A DNA stretch of 64,000 nt from Robertmurraya massiliosenegalensis JC6 (GTDB lineage: Bacteria; Bacillota; Bacilli; Bacillales; Cytobacillaceae), in NCBI RefSeq assembly GCF_000311725.1, contig NZ_HE978512.1, positions 199,893 through 263,892 on the forward strand. Direction: 5' to 3'. Shown here in pieces: positions 189 to 37,886 of this stretch. The notes beneath the pieces were generated by a model. It did not search any database and was not told the origin of the DNA. It saw only the letters and a list, made by a program, of their open reading frames with translations. How positions within the stretch are numbered: the first letter of the stretch is position 1; every line of letters begins with the position of its first letter. The translations under genes were made by a program, and so were the position numbers.

Positions 189-266
189 ATCATAGTCGAA
201 TTCATTTGTTATTGAATTGATGCACATCAATTTAATTCGGAAATTAATTAAATTGATGCACATCAA
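189..266 (-). promoter_or_regulatory. Flavodoxin promoter with two FNR-like palindromes
   Basis: Palindromes TTGATGCACATCAA lie at 217-230 and 253-266. They are part of a 30-nt direct repeat (215-244 and 251-280) with a 36-bp period. On the minus strand a TATGAT -10 element sits at 194-189, placing the start of transcription near 182. The first palindrome is then centred at about -41.5, the classic class II activator position, and the second near -77.5. TTGAT-N4-ATCAA is the FNR consensus of proteobacteria; Bacillus Fnr prefers a CRP-like TGTGA-N6-TCACA site, so the binding protein is uncertain. Confidence 0.5.
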
Positions 267-325
267 TTTAATTCGGAAATGAATGAATTTGCTCTAGATC
301 ATTTTAGTCTAGAAATTTACTCCAG

Positions 326-11735: not shown

Positions 11736-11890
11736 TGGCGGGGGTGCTTTTCCCTTGAATTGGATTTTCCCGTGGGATTGCGGGGGTTTCTGAGTTTATT
11801 GCGGGGGATTTGCCAATGATTGCGGGTGGTTTTTCGTTTATTGCGGGTGAATCGGCCTTAATTGCGGGAGTTTTCGAGGTTATTGCGGAT
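11736..11890. repeat. 21-bp phased TTGCGG array (locus A)
   Basis: The core ATTGCGG recurs with TTGCGG starts at 11778, 11799, 11820, 11841, 11862 and 11883, exactly 21 bp apart. A degenerate copy TGGCGG sits in phase at 11736. The 13 bases between cores are unrelated. The last copy reads ATTGCGGATTTGT. The array lies between the 3' end of the transglutaminase-like gene and the minJ start. A frame through it gives only a PAI-type heptad repeat and is not taken as coding. Confidence 0.85.
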
Positions 11891-17232: not shown

Positions 17233-17285
17233 CATTCTACTATCTTGTTTGCCGGAGAATTCTGCTACCGGGGTTTGGGGAGATG

Positions 17286-17541
17286 CGCAATTATTGTTGA
17301 AACCTGCGCAATTACCTGGGATTCATACGCAATTACGACCAAAACTACCGCAATCAGCCGGGATTCGTGCGCAATCACGACCAAAACTACCGCAATCTGC
17401 CGGGATTCATACGCAATTACGACCAAAACTACCGCAATCAGCCGGGATTCTTGCGCAATCACGACCATAACCTACGCAACGAACAGCTAACCACACGCAA
17501 TCTTCATCGATTTCCACGCAATCAACTCAAAACTGCCGCAA
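17286..17541. repeat. 21-bp phased CGCAAT array (locus B, largest)
   Basis: CGCAA cores start at 17286, 307, 328, 349, 370, 391, 412, 433, 454, 475, 496 and 517, all exactly 21 bp apart, plus one at 537 (20 bp). Thirteen copies. In the middle, units alternate between TGCGCAAT or TACGCAAT and ACCGCAAT, giving a near-perfect 42-bp higher-order unit. This is the reverse complement of the ATTGCGG core of loci A and D. It fills the convergent gap between the PBP and ctpB genes. Confidence 0.9.
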
Positions 17542-17575
17542 TCCCTTGCAATTCCCAATCTAATTTACCGACACA

Positions 17576-23857: not shown

Positions 23858-24718
23858 CTATACTCGTTTGAAACCCTCGCCGAGTACCTCTGCCGCATCC
23901 ATAACGACAACAAATGCAGTTGGATCAATACTTTTTACCAATTGTTTCAATTTTGTGAACTCAGTCTGATCCACGACACACATGAGGATTGGTCTCTCTT
24001 GATCGGTATAACCACCATATGCTGATAGTTTTGTCACACCTCTATCAATTTTATTCAAAATTCCTTCACGAACTTCATGTTGCTGGTTTGTAATGACCAT
24101 GACCATTTTCGAGCGTCCCCAGCCAATTTGCACCAAATCGATCGTTTTACTTGTTACATACAGACCAATTAAAGCATACAAACCTCTTTCAATATCAAAA
24201 ACAGTTGCAGCAGTCAAGACAATCAGTCCGTCAATGAGCGCCACACATGTTCCCAGTGAGAGTCCAGTAAATTTATTAATGATTTGCGCCGCTAAATCCG
24301 TTCCCCCTGTAGAACCTTTTCCGCGAAAAACGATTCCGAGTCCTAACCCGACGCCAATACCCCCAAATAGAGAAGCTAAAAGAGGATCAGTCGTCCACGG
24401 CTCCAAATCCTTCGTTACGAACACGATAAACGGAAGAAATATGGTTCCAATCAATGTTTTCAGACCGTATTGCCTTCCTAAAAAAATAACGCCTGCAATA
24501 AATAAAGGGATATTAAAGGCCCATTGAACATAAGCCGGCTCCCAACCTAGAATGGCATCAGTTATTGTACTAATCCCACTTACCCCACCTGAAGCAACTC
24601 GATTGGGAAGAAGGAAGACATTAAAGGCAAGCGCCACAGCGGCAGACCCGATTAAAATATATATGTACTCTAGTGCTTTACTCCATCTAGGATGGTATGT
24701 ATTCGTTCTCTTACGCAT
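23858..24718 (-). CDS. yvjA: YitT-family membrane protein (YvjA)
   Basis: The 286-residue protein has about five membrane spans in its N-terminal part (YitT/DUF161, with GGVSGIS and GKGSTGGTDLAAQI motifs) and a soluble C-terminal DUF2179 domain (residues about 200-280, VMVITNQQHEVREGIL). Family members are numerous in Bacillus and poorly characterised. Position between cccB and prfB matches B. subtilis yvjA. Confidence 0.85.
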   Translation of the reverse strand: MRKRTNTYHPRWSKALEYIYILIGSAAVALAFNVFLLPNRVASGGVSGISTITDAILGWEPAYVQWAFNIPLFIAGVIFLGRQYGLKTLIGTIFLPFIVFVTKDLEPWTTDPLLASLFGGIGVGLGLGIVFRGKGSTGGTDLAAQIINKFTGLSLGTCVALIDGLIVLTAATVFDIERGLYALIGLYVTSKTIDLVQIGWGRSKMVMVITNQQHEVREGILNKIDRGVTKLSAYGGYTDQERPILMCVVDQTEFTKLKQLVKSIDPTAFVVVMDAAEVLGEGFKRV

Positions 24719-24908: not shown

Positions 24909-25016
24909 TATCGGCGGTTTTGGCGATATATCGGCGAAAAAACGGATATATCGGCGTTTTTAGCAATATATCGGCGAAAAATCGAATATATCGGCGTTTT
25001 TAGCAATATATCGGCG
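24909..25016. repeat. 20-bp phased ATATCGGCG array (locus E)
   Basis: TATCGGCG starts at 24909, 24929, 24949, 24969, 24989 and 25009, exactly 20 bp apart. Spacers partly alternate (GAAAAA and GTTTTTAGCA types). It lies in the yvjA-prfB gap, 135 bp before a second array with a different core. Confidence 0.88.
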
Positions 25017-25151
25017 AAACGCTCTAACCCTCTAAAAAATCCAAGTAATTGGTTTTTCAACGCTTCATGTGTATGAAAAATGCTGTTTCCCGCCTGAAAG
25101 TTACCTATTTTTCAGAATTCAAACACATGCAGCATCCCGCATTTTGGCGGA

Positions 25152-25240
25152 TATCGGTCTAAATTTGATTTTATCGGTCTAATTCAAAATCTATCGGTCT
25201 AAATCGAATTATATCGGTCAAAACGCACCATTTATCGGTC
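25152..25240. repeat. 20-bp phased TATCGGTC array (locus F)
   Basis: TATCGGTC starts at 25152, 25172, 25192, 25212 and 25233. The same motif in inverted orientation forms the array at 29264-29391, so the pair brackets prfB and secA. It lies 33 bp before the prfB terminator. Confidence 0.85.
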
Positions 25241-25272
25241 TTACGCAGCTAAACGTAAACGCCCAACACACT

Positions 25273-25302
25273 AAAAAGACCCTCACGCCACGTGTGAGGG
25301 TC
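25273..25302 (-). terminator. Terminator of prfB
   Basis: On the minus strand ACCCTCAC pairs with GTGAGGGT around ACGTGGC and is followed by CTTTTT. Confidence 0.85.
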
Positions 25303-25316
25303 CAACTAACATATAA

Positions 25317-26421
25317 TTATAAACTCAATTTCGAACGCAAGTAGGCATTGATGAACGGATCTAAGTCCCCGTCCATAACCCCTTGTACGTTTCCGCTTTC
25401 GGTGTTCGTGCGGTGGTCTTTAACCATGGAATAAGGATGGAAAACATAAGAACGAATTTGGCTTCCCCAGCCGATATCCTTTTGCTCACCGCGAATTTCT
25501 GCAAGTTCTGCTTCCTGCTCTTCAATCTTTTTCTGATAGAGCTTCGCTTGAAGCATTTTCATCGCTGCTTCACGGTTTTTAATTTGGGAGCGTTCATTTT
25601 GACATTGAACGACGACACCAGTTGGCAAGTGAGTAATACGAACCGCTGAATCGGTTGTGTTAATATGCTGACCACCAGCACCAGTCGCACGGTACGTATC
25701 AACCTTCAAATCCTCTGTGCGAATGTCAATTTCAATTTCATCATTCATCTCCGGCATTACTTCACATGAAACGAATGAAGTATGGCGACGACCAGAAGAA
25801 TCGAACGGAGAAATACGAACCAAGCGGTGAACTCCTTTTTCCGCTTTCAAGTAGCCGTAAGCATTATGACCTTTAATCCCGAGAGTGACACTTTTAATTC
25901 CTGCTTCATCCCCTGGCAAATAATCCAATGTTTCCACTTTAAAGCCTTTTTTCTCCGCCCAACGTGTGTACATACGAAGAAGCATCGAGCCCCAGTCTTG
26001 AGACTCTGTTCCACCTGCACCGGGATGCAGTTCCAAAATGGCATTATTTTTATCATACGGCTCGCTCAAAAGAAGTTGGAGCTCGTAAGCATTCATGCGC
26101 TTCACTAATTCCTGCATTTCAGACACTAACTCTGCCAATAGCTCCTCATCACTTTCTTCCTTTACAAGCTCATACGTTAACTCTAAATTTTCAAACGTCT
26201 CGTTTAAATCATGAAATTCATGAACTTGATCCTTCAACCCATTTGATTCACTAATGACCGCTTGTGCACTTTGCTGATCATTCCAAAATTCCGGCTGAAG
26301 CATTTCATCCTCAAGCTCGGCAATGCGCGCCTCTTTGTTCTCTAAGTCAAAGAGACCCCCTAAAGTCCGCTAATTTCTTAGCTGTATTTTCTAACTCATG
26401 ACGAATATCTGCTAATTCCAT
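25317..26421 (-). CDS. prfB: Peptide chain release factor 2 (programmed +1 frameshift)
   Basis: RF2 releases the peptide at UGA and UAA. The ATG at 26421 opens 24 codons (starting [12 protein letters not shown]) that end in an in-frame TGA at 26349-26347. A +1 shift at CTT joins them to the long frame, giving 367 residues in total, the normal RF2 length. The anticodon-mimic SPF (RISPFDSSG) and catalytic GGQ ([11 protein letters not shown]) are present. The secA gene is upstream on the same strand as in B. subtilis, but a terminator and a long palindrome separate them here. Confidence 0.95.
26346..26361 (-). promoter_or_regulatory. prfB autoregulatory +1 frameshift site
   Basis: Minus-strand AGGGGG (an internal Shine-Dalgarno) is followed three bases later by CTT-TGA-C. 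This is the known RF2 control site: when RF2 is scarce the ribosome pauses at UGA and slips +1 on CUU. All required elements are intact. Confidence 0.95.
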
Positions 26422-26608: not shown

Positions 26609-29122
26609 TTAAGACATTTTTCCACAACAGTTCTTATATTTCTTACCGCTGCCGCAAATACATGGGTCATTACGTCCCACATCTAGTGCTTTAACGACTG
26701 GCTTCTTCTTTACTTTTTCTCCGTCTTCCTTCGGATTAACCGCTTGACCTTTTGCTACTTCTTCACGCTCAAGGTTATTGCGAATTTCCGCTTTCATGAC
26801 ATATTTCGCTGCGTCATCCTCAATGGCCAAGACCATTTCTTCAAACATGGCGAAGCCTTCTTTATTATATTCACGAAGCGGATCAATTTGACCGTAGGCA
26901 CGAAGATGAATTCCTTGACGGAGCTGATCCATTTGGTCGATATGGTCGATCCACTTCGAATCCACTGCACGAAGAAGAACAACCTTCTCAAACTCACGGA
27001 TTTGCTCCTCAGAAAGCTGACTTTCTTTTTCATCATAACGCTCTTTTACCTTGGCAAAAATAACGTCGATGATTTCCTCAGTATCCTTATTACGAATATC
27101 ATCAATCGTCAAATCACCTTCTTGTAAAAGGTTTCCGTTGACGTAATCGATGATTCCTTGAAGATTCCAACTATCTCGCTCCTCATGCCCCGGTGTAAAG
27201 GCCTCTACATGACGAGTTAATGAGCTTAGAATCATATTTTCAAGGATGCTTCGTAAATTCTCAGATTCAAGAACCTCATTACGCTGCTTGTAAATGATTT
27301 CACGTTGCTGACGTAGAACATCATCATATGACAAGAGCTGCTTACGTGCATCAAAGTTATTCCCTTCCACACGTTTTTGCGCTGATTCAACCGCTTTAGA
27401 AACCATTTTACTTTGAATTGGCTGGGAATCATCCATTCCAAGACGAGACATCATCGCTTTCATATTGTCAGAACCGAAGCGGCGCATCAATTCATCTTCC
27501 ATAGAAAGGTAGAACTGAGTGACACCAGGGTCCCCTTGACGACCAGAACGTCCGCGAAGCTGATTATCAATACGGCGGCTTTCATGGCGTTCCGTACCGA
27601 TAACAGCTAAACCACCAAGTTCTTTTACCCCTTCACCAAGCTTGATGTCGGTACCACGACCAGCCATGTTTGTGGCAATCGTCACGGCACCCTTTTCACC
27701 AGCGTTAGCGATAATTTCCGCTTCACGGCCATGGTTCTTCGCATTTAATACATTATGATGAATCCCTTTTTTTGTTAAATATTTGGAAATAAGCTCAGAT
27801 GTTTCAATCGCAACCGTACCAACGAGGACAGGTTGTCCCTTTTTATTACGCTCAGCGATATCCTCACATACGGCACGGAACTTCCCTTCCATTGTCGCAT
27901 AAATTAAATCTGGACGGTCGTCACGAGCAATCGGTTGATTCGTTGGTATTGCCACAACGTTCATATTATAAATGTTACGGAATTCCTCTTCCTCTGTCTT
28001 TGCCGTACCCGTCATACCCGAAAGTTTTTCGTACATACGGAAAAAGTTCTGGAACGTGATCGATGCAAGGGTCATACTTTCATTTTGGATTTCCAAGCCT
28101 TCTTTTGCTTCAATTGCTTGGTGGAGTCCATCACTGTAGCGACGACCTTTCATTAAACGACCTGTAAATTGGTCAACGATGACGATTTCACCGTCTTGAA
28201 CAACATAGTCAACATCTAAATGCATGCTCGCATGGGCCTTTAACGATTGTCCGATATGATGATTTAAGGCAACATGACGAATATCAAAAAGGTTCTCAAT
28301 GCCAAAAGCCTTTTCCGCTTTCGAGATCCCATCTTCAGTGAGCTGAACGCCTTTTGTTTTCTCATCATAAGTATAATCTTCGTCCTTTTTCAACGTACGA
28401 ACGAAGGCATTGGCTTGAATATATAATGCAGTCGACTTTTGCGCAGATCCTGAAATAATTAATGGTGTTCTCGCTTCATCGATTAAAATCGAGTCAACCT
28501 CATCGATAACGGCAAAGTTCAATGGACGCTGAACTTTTTGCTCCTTATAAAGGACCATATTATCACGAAGGTAATCGAAGCCAAGTTCATTATTCGTGCT
28601 ATATGTGATATCACATGCATACGCTTCTTGCTTTTCTTCTTTTGTGAGGCTATTTGTGTTCAAACCTACTGTGAGCCCTAAAAATTGATAAAGCTCACCC
28701 ATTTCAGTGGCGTCACGACTAGCCAAGTATTCGTTGACCGTGACGACATGTACACCTTTTCCAGAAAGGGCGTTAAGATAAACGGGCATCGTAGCCGTTA
28801 ATGTTTTACCTTCCCCTGTTTTCATCTCAGCGATGTTTCCTTCATGAAGGGAAATCCCCCCCATGAGCTGAACAGGATATGGGTGTAATCCAAGAACACG
28901 TTTCGCCGCTTCACGAACAACGGCAAACGCCTCTGTTAAAAGGTCATCTAATGTTTCACCCTTTTGGTAGCGGGCTTTGAATTCTTCTGTTTTTTGACGA
29001 AGTCCTTCATCACTTAAAGCAGCAGTTTTTGACGCAAGAGCCTCGATTTCCTCACTCATCTTCGTTAATTTCTTAATCTCTCGCTTATTCGGATCAAATA
29101 CTTTATTTAACATTCCAAGCAT
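26609..29122 (-). CDS. secA: Preprotein translocase ATPase SecA
   Basis: The 837-residue motor drives proteins through SecYEG. Visible are Walker A in [11 protein letters not shown], the DEVD box ([17 protein letters not shown]), [12 protein letters not shown] and [12 protein letters not shown] helicase motifs, and a C-terminal zinc site [13 protein letters not shown] that contacts SecB-like partners or the ribosome. Length matches B. subtilis SecA (841). The ribosome site is AAAGGAGCG. Upstream lies a 20-bp repeat array rather than another gene's coding end. Confidence 0.97.
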
Positions 29123-29263
29123 TGAATACGCTCCTTTAATTCATATGTAAAATCGGCTCTATTTCAATAAAAATCATGGATAACTCGTACTATATTCTTA
29201 TTAATATTACCATTTCCACTTTGGAGTGACAACTTTGGTGAGTGTGGAGGTGATTTGGGGTTT

Positions 29264-29391
29264 GACCGATATATGGGGTTTTTTGACCGATATAATTCAA
29301 ATTAGACCGATATATTTCAATTTGGACCGATATATTTCAATTTGGACCGATAAAATCAAAATTAGACCGATATCTGTAAAATAGACGGATC
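29264..29391. repeat. 20-bp phased GACCGATA array (locus G)
   Basis: GACCGATA starts at 29264, 29285, 29305, 29325, 29345 and 29365, with a last degenerate GACGGAT at 29384. Spacing is 20 bp apart from one 21 and one 19. The core is the reverse complement of locus F. It lies between the SEC-C gene terminator and the secA start. Confidence 0.85.
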
Positions 29392-29451
29392 TTCTTGGTT
29401 TGTTTTTCCTCAAAAACTCAATACCCTCGATGATTTCGCTAATATTAAGAC

Positions 29452-29480
29452 AAGAGACCAGCCGATAGCAGCCAGTCTCT
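29452..29480 (-). terminator. Hairpin after the SEC-C protein gene
   Basis: On the minus strand AAGAGAC pairs perfectly with GTCTCTT, extended inward by TGGCTG/CGGCTG. The following tract is only weakly T-rich. Confidence 0.55.
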
Positions 29481-29494
29481 TGCCATAATACTTG

Positions 29495-30583
29495 TTAAAA
29501 AGGCATATCCCGATTCTCAAATTCGCCGTTAATATCCTCCGCATACATTGCACGCATATCCGTAAGTTCTTCATCTACAACAGATTCCATATCCGTCACG
29601 GCTACGCTTAGGGTAGCTGGAGAAATGCCGTATTGATGCGCTACCTCTTTTTTTGTTATTTTCATGAGAGGATTAAGTGTCAAAATAAGATATTGAACAG
29701 CAGCGGCATAGGTAGCCGGCTTTTTCGTTAACTGCGCTACTTTTTCGCAATATTTATACCAAAGGATGTTCCCGCCTGCAATCACCATTGGTGAGGCATC
29801 GAGGTTTTTCATTTCACTTTCATAAAGCTCGGCGACTGCCCGATGGGATTCATTGCTCCACTTGAAATCACTCGCACCATATTCAAGAGATGCGTAAGGC
29901 AACTCATTCATCATATAAATCATTTCATCTGCTAAAAAATCGATTGGTTCATCATAATCGGAAGCAGAAAATCGGTCTTTGATAAACTGTTCATCCTTAT
30001 CATCCGTTTCTCCCTCTAAATCAAAAGCAGTCGGGAAAAAGGTCCACTCATTTCCAAAAGGAACTAAAAATCCAAACACAAAGGAGTTCTCTGCCGATTC
30101 AATTGGTTCCAAAATCTTGATGGAAAGCGCCTCTTCCGTCAACGTATCGAGCACGGTCATATTGCTCTCATCAATGGAAAGCAGGCGGCCAGCAAGTGGA
30201 CGTGGATTGGTCCAAGATTGAAGGATTTCCTTCACCTTTGGACGCTGAATCATTCTACTTTTCTCCTCGATAAATCGTTGTAGAATCGTACCACCATTAT
30301 CAACATGCTCAAATAAGGCAAACCAAACGGTATGGATGAATAGGTAATACTCCATTTCCTCCTCATCCTCAATCAACAACTCCTCCGCCTTGTACTCGAA
30401 ATCTTGCTCAATTTCAAACTCGTACTCTCGAATCGCATATTGGATCAGTTGCACCTGTAGATCAATCACTTCTTTTTCAATTATTGAAGTAATCGAAACA
30501 GTTTTCTGCATGCCACAGCATTTCTTATATTTTTTTCCACTTCCACATGGGCAAGGCTCGTTACGGCTTATCTTTATATTCAT
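29495..30583 (-). CDS. SEC-C motif protein of unknown function
   Basis: From the ATG behind GAGGAGAAGT the protein has 362 residues. The N-terminal 28 residues carry a SEC-C zinc motif ([16 protein letters not shown]) like the SecA C-terminus. An acidic all-alpha middle follows, and near residue 310 a helix-turn-helix-like segment (KKEVAHQYGISPATLSVAVTDME). The gene is next to secA, whose own C-terminus has the same motif, but no functional link is shown. It is monocistronic with a hairpin terminator. Confidence 0.75.
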   Translation of the reverse strand: MNIKISRNEPCPCGSGKKYKKCCGMQKTVSITSIIEKEVIDLQVQLIQYAIREYEFEIEQDFEYKAEELLIEDEEEMEYYLFIHTVWFALFEHVDNGGTILQRFIEEKSRMIQRPKVKEILQSWTNPRPLAGRLLSIDESNMTVLDTLTEEALSIKILEPIESAENSFVFGFLVPFGNEWTFFPTAFDLEGETDDKDEQFIKDRFSASDYDEPIDFLADEMIYMMNELPYASLEYGASDFKWSNESHRAVAELYESEMKNLDASPMVIAGGNILWYKYCEKVAQLTKKPATYAAAVQYLILTLNPLMKITKKEVAHQYGISPATLSVAVTDMESVVDEELTDMRAMYAEDINGEFENRDMPF

Positions 30584-34441: not shown

Positions 34442-34563
34442 TTGATTCAAACTCGGGATTCGGATTCATTTGGATATTAACCGATACATGATTCGTACGC
34501 TTTAGATATTAATTATACGTTAGTGTTCTGAGAAGACCGTGAGCCGGCTGAACCTTAGAAATG

Positions 34564-34674
34564 CGCAATCAGCCTGGAATCGTGCGCAATTATTACGAAA
34601 AGACCCGCAATGACCTTGAAATCGTACGCAATTATCCGCAAAACACCCGCAATGATGCCGAAAAGACCCGCAAT
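34564..34674. repeat. 21-bp phased CGCAAT array (locus C)
   Basis: CGCAA cores start at 34564, 34585, 34606, 34627, 34648 and 34669, exactly 21 bp apart, alternating GCGCAAT/ACGCAAT and CCCGCAAT as in locus B. A chance extra CGCAA lies out of phase at 34637. It lies in the convergent gap after the small plus-strand gene, with core orientation as in locus B. Confidence 0.88.
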
Positions 34675-37567: not shown

Positions 37568-37774
37568 ATGTATAGCTCCCCCTTTATCGTAGGCCCTGTT
37601 CTCAGACTATGACGCAAATTGTTTCGAAATGCGTACGATTGCCTAAATGAGCACCAAGACCTTCCTTATTATTAAGAAAAATACGAAAAATCCGCATATT
37701 TATATTGTAATAGACTAGGGGGAGAAGTACAATTAGAGGATTTTTTTGGAAATACAGTTATGGGAAATGGTGGA

Positions 37775-37886
37775 TTGCGGGGGTTTTCAGAGTTATTGCG
37801 GGGGTTTGGGCCATAATTGCGGGCTTTTTGGAAAAGATTGCGGGTACATTGGTGATAATTGCGGGTAAATCCAAGTTCATTGCGGA
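37775..37886. repeat. 21-bp phased TTGCGG array (locus D)
   Basis: TTGCGG starts at 37775, 37796, 37817, 37838, 37859 and 37880, exactly 21 bp apart. The invariant core is ATTGCGGG, with 13 unrelated bases between. The last copy is ATTGCGGATTTCGT, as in locus A. It lies between the ggt start and the four-palindrome element copy 2. Confidence 0.9.

Follow-up and report, generated by a model that had tools for sequence, protein, structure and literature searches.

Phased intergenic repeat arrays in Robertmurraya and other Bacillales as probable cognate sites of NERD-domain nuclease-like proteins

The genome of Robertmurraya massiliosenegalensis JC6 and those of several related genera contain intergenic arrays of 8-bp cores repeated every 20 or 21 bp. 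We propose that these arrays are the cognate sites of a dedicated family of NERD nuclease-like proteins, which may spread their own arrays, and we put the probability of this reading at about 0.7. Support for it comes from the linkage between NERD genes and arrays, the matching of cores to individual NERD genes, the predictions that this matching yielded, the conservation of catalytic residues, and the block-like similarity between arrays. The arrays that led to this proposal lie in the gap between prfB and yitT, in a 64,000-nucleotide stretch of contig NZ_HE978512.1 (positions 199,893 to 263,892) that we refer to as the window.

Arrays in the window and their anatomy

An earlier note on this DNA had described two arrays with different cores, TATCGGCG and TATCGGTC, side by side in the prfB-yitT gap, and both were confirmed at those positions and steps (Table 1), with counts far above chance. 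The six TATCGGCG cores start at 24909, 24929, 24949, 24969, 24989 and 25009 on the forward strand; none lies elsewhere in the 64-kb window, 0.85 would be expected by chance, and a count of 6 was reached in 0 of 100 shuffles. In the case of TATCGGTC, cores start at 25152, 25172, 25192, 25212 and 25233 in the gap, and the count for the whole window is 13 against 1.18 by chance, which was matched in 0 of 100 shuffles. The note's description of these arrays as real, non-coding and phased at two helical turns is borne out, as is their assignment to one wider class together with arrays that have a 21-bp step. Its reasoning from the step needs correction, because a 20-bp step alone cannot exclude coding for the 21-bp arrays; it is their position that makes these intergenic. 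Two inverted pairs that cross each other, CATGTGT/ACACATG and ATGCTG/CAGCAT, are found between the TATCGGCG and TATCGGTC arrays, in the order CATGTGT..ATGCTG..ACACATG..CAGCAT.

Table 1. Arrays and neighbouring features in the window (window coordinates)
Feature	Position	Strand	Remarks
Array of six ATTGCGG cores	11777..11889	+	21-bp step; NERD1 core class
Array of 12 or 13 ATTGCG cores	17284..17542	-	mostly 21-bp step; 42-bp dimer pattern
yitT-family membrane protein gene	23858..24718	-	next gene past the arrays
Array of six TATCGGCG cores	24909..25016	+	exact 20-bp step; linkers AT-rich and position-specific
Spacer separating the TATCGGCG and TATCGGTC arrays	25017..25151	.	two crossing inverted pairs
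Array of five TATCGGTC cores	25152..25240	+	steps 20, 20, 20, 21
prfB intrinsic terminator (approximate span)	25270..25320	-	hairpin and T tract, facing the arrays
prfB (peptide chain release factor 2)	25317..26303	-	neighbour; 3' end toward the arrays
Array of six TATCGGTC cores	29264..29372	-	between SEC-C gene and secA
Array of six ATTGCG cores	34562..34674	-	21-bp step
Array of six ATTGCGG cores	37774..37886	+	21-bp step

A scan for phased k-mers found seven arrays in the window, three of the TATCGG type and four of the ATTGCG type with a 21-bp step, and there are dozens of such arrays in the JC6 genome. The genome-wide search for further phased copies, which the note had proposed as a check, returned 37 forward and 15 reverse phased pairs, and 0 for the reversed control pattern, so that the refuting condition named in the note, an absence of such copies, does not hold. 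The totals for JC6 are 52 phased pairs of TATCGGYS and 63 of ATTGCGG, with none for the reversed control. A repeat of another kind lies at window positions 211-291, where a 36-bp unit with a ATTAAATTGATG/CATCAATTTAAT palindrome is repeated in tandem in about 2.2 copies.

The spacing of the cores is quantised. Over some 770 kb of retrieved sequence, consecutive TATCGG cores were 20 bp apart 122 times, 21 bp 27 times and 40 bp 9 times, and successive ATTGCG cores were 20 bp apart 25 times, 21 bp 97 times and 42 bp 8 times, the spacings of 40-42 bp corresponding to one skipped core. Spacings of 19 or 22 bp did not occur among these cores, and control 6-mers gave no comparable pattern in the same DNA; a single 19-bp step was seen in one decaying array that was viewed separately from this count. 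Each unit consists of an invariant 8-bp core with an AT-rich stretch ahead of it, and a TTT/TTC tract at approximately positions 11-14 of the 20-21-bp unit. Six units per array is the rule in JC6, and up to 51 are found elsewhere, the longest array seen being one of 51 TATCGG units in Peribacillus tepidiphilus (L147:1385-2419).

The cores are conserved and the linkers between them are variable. Linkers at the same position of an array resemble each other across loci more than they resemble linkers elsewhere in the array, and 0 of 500 permutations gave as strong an effect in either core class; the flanks are unrelated. This is what would be expected if arrays were copied as whole blocks, although position-specific linkers could instead reflect function. 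Neither a target-site duplication nor a recent insertion was seen.

NERD genes and the matching of cores

We scored a NERD locus as having an array when at least four units at 20 or 21 bp lay no more than 700 bp from the gene. By this measure, 42 of 72 NERD genes have a phased array, as opposed to 0 of 79 control windows of the same size taken from the same loci; the other 30 loci count against the pairing that we propose, but some of them may have degenerate arrays. Arrays on both sides of the gene are found in a minority of the 72 loci, and their orientation is mixed. In JC6 itself, all three close NERD paralogues adjoin arrays, each with a different core: NERD1 has two near-identical ATTGCGGG arrays, one on each side of the gene, NERD2, at C2:105689-106627, has a TATCGGCG array 17 bp past its stop codon, and NERD3 has an adjacent ATTCCGGA array. 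In P. tepidiphilus, a NERD homologue is located between two TATCGGTC arrays. In Bacillus methanolicus MGA3 a NERD gene adjoins upp (PMC12802215), and JC6 NERD1 is positioned near the place of that gene.

Read by NERD paralogue, the cores include TATCGGTC, TATCGGCG, TATCGACC, ATTGCGGG, ATTGCACC, TATCCGCG, TATGCGCG, TATGCTCG, TATGGGTC, TATTAGCC and many others, and most of them begin with TAT or ATT and vary at the five remaining bases. Because the cores vary by paralogue, we rejected a single fixed code for the whole family. Three cores read at NERD genes predicted further arrays in the expected genomes. Thus, ATTCCGGA, taken from the NERD3 locus and then searched, is present at about eight places in JC6, with 26 forward matches against 0 for the control, and its arrays include contig C1, which is without the other two core classes. 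The core TATCCGCG, read at NERD genes of genomes G014, G026 and G027, gave 66, 114 and 8 pairs in these three; most of the 101 genomes searched had 0, and TATCCGCG arrays again adjoin NERD genes in G034 and G039. Finally, TATTAGCM, read in G030 and G017, gave 76 and 20 matches in these genomes, 69 in their congener G046 and at most 4 elsewhere. Because each array family shares its core with an array beside a NERD gene, it appears that the nuclease and its matching repeats have evolved together, as partners.

Two further loci deserve mention. A fourth, divergent NERD gene of JC6 (26% identity; L278:1492-2409, C2:555523-556401) has no 20/21-bp array; upstream of it (L278:1050-1350) are tandem repeats of about 67 bp, each with an inverted TCCGAAT/ATTCGGA pair, which are possibly another kind of cognate repeat. 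In Ectobacillus antri (L229:2069-2516), the NERD reading frame continues into the array that belongs to it, and the array is then read as repeats of seven residues (RPIEAGN / RPIEEK...).

The function of the NERD domain has been little studied (PMC9040797). In the proteins considered here the domain forms the N-terminal part, with a PD-(D/E)XK-type nuclease fold; next comes a zinc ribbon, and the C-terminal end, predicted to bind DNA, is a winged helix-turn-helix. Pfam places the domain (PF08378; E=1.7e-22; 80.5 and 70 bits against a cut-off of 22.1) at residues 42-154, with the zinc ribbon next to it. Residues E46, Q77, D79 and K94 and the four zinc cysteines are present in 75 of 75 sequences, and E92 in 74 of 75; the invariant catalytic residues E46, D79 and K94 lead us to predict nuclease activity. 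The whole-gene dN/dS ratio is about 0.1 in several moderately diverged orthologue pairs for which dS could be estimated, and the zinc ribbon is the fastest-evolving part (0.29 and 0.49 in two pairs). In the AF2 model (pLDDT 84, pTM 0.80), the N-terminal part resembles the Can2/VC1899 nucleases (Z 9.0 and 8.8), as well as XisH and restriction-type enzymes, and the C-terminal part matches winged-helix folds (Z 7.6, rmsd 1.6-2.0). These fold matches are modest, with VIA Z scores of 7-9 and a best Foldseek E value of 6e-3; a fold search of the PDB gave nothing at E<=0.001, and a profile search gave no match to an HUH transposase.

Among 101 relatives, members of the NERD family are found in 88, with 1-11 per genome and occasional broken copies among the paralogues, and TATCGG and ATTGCG triples in 25 and 7, respectively; in a few triple-bearing genomes the triples look like coding repeats, as in G031 with its near-identical 21-mer units. 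Arrays of five units were found, in a scan of named genomes, in Robertmurraya, Cytobacillus, Oceanobacillus, Ectobacillus, Paraliobacillus, Peribacillus, Metabacillus, Rossellomorea, Planomicrobium and others. In a set of 398 Bacillota genomes, only a handful have the family, and nearly all of these are Bacillales. A phage origin of the arrays was rejected, as 2.9 million viral contigs contained 6 triple matches for each of two patterns. One genome that counts against the proposal, G060, has 29 TATCGG triple matches (TATCGGCC arrays) but only one weak NERD match; either its assembly, which is 88% complete, lacks the NERD gene, or arrays persist after the gene is lost.

Change of core at the eno locus

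In several genera, a NERD gene adjoins the 3' end of eno, and the core beside it differs between species. It is TATCGGCG in JC6 and R. siralis, TATCGGTC in R. kyonggiensis and R. yapensis, TATCCGTA in G003, TATTAGCA in G030 and TATCCGCG in G027, and, where tested, the arrays across the genome change along with it. In four Robertmurraya orthologues, the recognition helix starts with SED where the core is TATCGGCG and with SDT where it is TATCGGTC. Each of the eight TATCGGCG arrays of JC6 has five or six intact cores; the cores of its TATCGGTC arrays outside the window are mutated or few. Given that one orthologous NERD gene carries either core depending on the species, and that in JC6 the TATCGGTC arrays decay and the TATCGGCG arrays are intact, the comparison suggests, from few arrays, that the two arrays of the prfB-yitT gap represent the current (TATCGGCG) and the former (TATCGGTC) specificity of one NERD lineage.

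The earlier note had suggested that the two cores may be variants read by related proteins. They are probably protein-read variants of one core, but most likely not the sites of two paralogues side by side, since both adjoin one orthologous eno-locus NERD gene in different Robertmurraya species. Two paralogous proteins, one for each core, would agree with the general rule that different cores within one genome accompany different NERD paralogues. Yet no NERD gene adjoining a TATCGGTC array was found in JC6, and the sister-species orthologues of its TATCGGCG-linked NERD carry TATCGGTC, so that we regard two proteins as unlikely.

The arrays themselves come and go at orthologous positions. In G000, G004 and G006 (R. 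siralis), the prfB-yitT gap has a TATCGGTC-type array beside prfB and then a TATCGGCG-type array, the linkers and copy numbers differing; this gap is without arrays in G001, G002 (R. kyonggiensis), G003 and G005 (R. yapensis). The gap between the SEC-C gene and secA (window 29122-29495) contains a solo TATCGGTC array, and its counterpart in Cytobacillus oceanisediminis (L154:4250-5760) contains both a TATCGGTC array, in the opposite orientation, and a NERD gene. Possibly a NERD gene was once present beside the solo array and has been lost.

Proposed mechanism, alternatives and relation to known repeats

We propose the following mechanism. Every NERD paralogue would pair with an 8-bp core of its own, in most cases a TAT (or ATT) with five variable positions after it. 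The zinc ribbon and the winged helix would bind this core, one protein for each 20-21-bp unit, so that neighbouring copies of the protein all sit on the same side of the DNA. One array would stay at the NERD gene, while arrays with the same core would disperse as whole blocks of about 120 bp and land in intergenic gaps at the 3' ends of genes. The NERD nuclease would act on DNA and promote the copying of its own arrays, as is thought for RAYT transposases with REP sequences. As specificity drifts, a new generation of arrays would replace the old one; of the two gap arrays in the window, the one with TATCGGCG would carry the core that the NERD lineage at eno reads now, and the one with TATCGGTC a core that this lineage read earlier. 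The parts of this mechanism do not have the same standing. We are highly confident that NERD proteins and arrays are functionally paired, and direct binding of the arrays by the protein is likely, whereas for NERD-driven copying we consider the odds to be about even; cutting by the protein, and any benefit to the host, we infer.

The chief rival to NERD-driven copying is a system that serves the host, in which NERD would bind DNA as a chromosomal factor, and the arrays would insulate transcript ends or act as roadblocks there, against read-through, R-loops or the spread of supercoils, and would be kept by host selection. It would fit the position of the arrays: divergent gaps, which make up 109 of 494 intergenic gaps in the same loci, hold 8 of 121 arrays, and in JC6 a terminator faces the 3' side of 18 of 25 arrays at a median of 36 bp, compared with about 14% of random stretches. 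It would also fit the conservation of cores while linkers vary, and a chromosomal NERD gene under purifying selection. Against this, the avoidance of divergent gaps may merely reflect harm from insertions there, arrays at orthologous gaps are gained and lost between species of one genus, and the catalytic residues are invariant, although mere binding would not need them. All in all, we consider a host-serving role possible, but the weaker candidate. Among the points against our own proposal is the orientation toward a neighbouring terminator, which is strong in JC6 but not in the wider set of named genomes, where a terminator was found on the 3' side of 46 of 113 arrays and on the other side of 48. 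The avoidance of divergent gaps also led us to reject upstream regulatory sites as a general role, and a replication-strand rule was rejected as well: arrays occur on both strands around the single 5.27-Mb contig of G056, and therefore the strand bias of JC6 is not general.

A role in defence or self/non-self discrimination, in which the nuclease would attack invading DNA while the chromosomal arrays hold or license it, is improbable. The nuclease fold, the several diversified and occasionally broken paralogues per genome, and the presence of CRISPR ancillary nucleases among the nearest fold matches could be accommodated by it. On the other hand, PADLOC recognised no known anti-phage system, its best match being Csm2 at E=0.008 over only 25 residues; no NERD relatives were found in viral contigs or phage records, and plasmids gave a single weak match; and the neighbours at the loci viewed are housekeeping genes, not defence islands. 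Least probable by far is that the arrays are neutral tandem repeats generated by replication slippage: copy number does vary, up to the maximum given above, and 40-bp dimers amplify, but slippage would not explain cores that are identical over many loci while linkers diverge, the quantised spacing, or the strong linkage to NERD genes.

In organisation, the NERD arrays resemble the REP/RAYT systems (TnpA-REP; REPtrons, REPINs), in which a chromosomal nuclease-type gene is flanked by a matched repeat with which the enzyme co-evolves (PMC2817692, PMC8266576); like REP sequences, they have many dispersed intergenic copies on the chromosome. In REP/RAYT the cognate repeat flanks the gene on both sides in inverted orientation; at the NERD loci, as given above, an array adjoins 42 of 72 genes, a minority have arrays on both sides, and orientation is mixed. 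They depart from these systems in both defining features: RAYT is an HUH tyrosine (IS200/IS605-like) transposase and NERD a PD-(D/E)XK-like protein with a zinc ribbon and a winged helix-turn-helix, and REP is a palindromic hairpin, single-stranded, with a GTAG head, whereas the NERD arrays are phased direct repeats without such a head. The STAR elements of Staphylococcus are also intergenic direct repeats with a conserved core, variable spacers and copy number, species-specific loci and unknown function (PMC3532100), but they have a GC-rich 14-bp core, TNTGTTGNGGCCC, a spacing of at least 40 bp, no phasing and no reported linked gene, as opposed to 8-bp cores at 20/21 bp. The TAACTGA repeats of Beggiatoaceae, short intergenic direct repeats at many loci per genome (PMC4679880), consist of one heptamer and are proposed RNA-level sites near start codons, in contrast to the many cores and 3'-end locations of the NERD arrays. 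STAR and TAACTGA repeats are thus alike to NERD arrays only as intergenic repeats. CRISPR arrays combine cas genes with repeats of about 21-48 bp whose spacers are non-repetitive, while here we find 8-bp cores, related position-specific linkers and housekeeping neighbours. Plasmid iterons and ParR-parC repeats are direct repeats of about 20 bp phased by two helical turns; the NERD arrays differ from them in being dispersed on the chromosome without a replication or partition gene. SmdA, a membrane cell-morphology factor, shares the NERD domain but lacks several of its conserved residues (PMC9040797) and has no linked repeats.

Our search of the open literature, as distinct from subscription papers, found no paper that joins NERD proteins and intergenic repeats, and the pair seems not to have been described before. 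It may be, and we see about as much for this as against it, that NERD nucleases form an undescribed class of partnership in which each enzyme reads a five-base code after a fixed TAT, spreads its phased arrays on its own chromosome and changes its code, leaving old arrays to decay. On the reading that we prefer, in which the arrays are cognate sites of NERD proteins, NERD, an orphan nuclease domain, would be linked to specific DNA sites, and a large class of Bacillales intergenic repeats that lack annotation would have an explanation. The many pairs of paralogue and core would provide ready-made data from which a protein-DNA recognition code could be worked out. Furthermore, REP/RAYT would be joined by a second, independent case in which an enzyme confined to its host has cognate repeats dispersed in the genome, and the origin and persistence of such repeat populations would become testable in Gram-positive bacteria.
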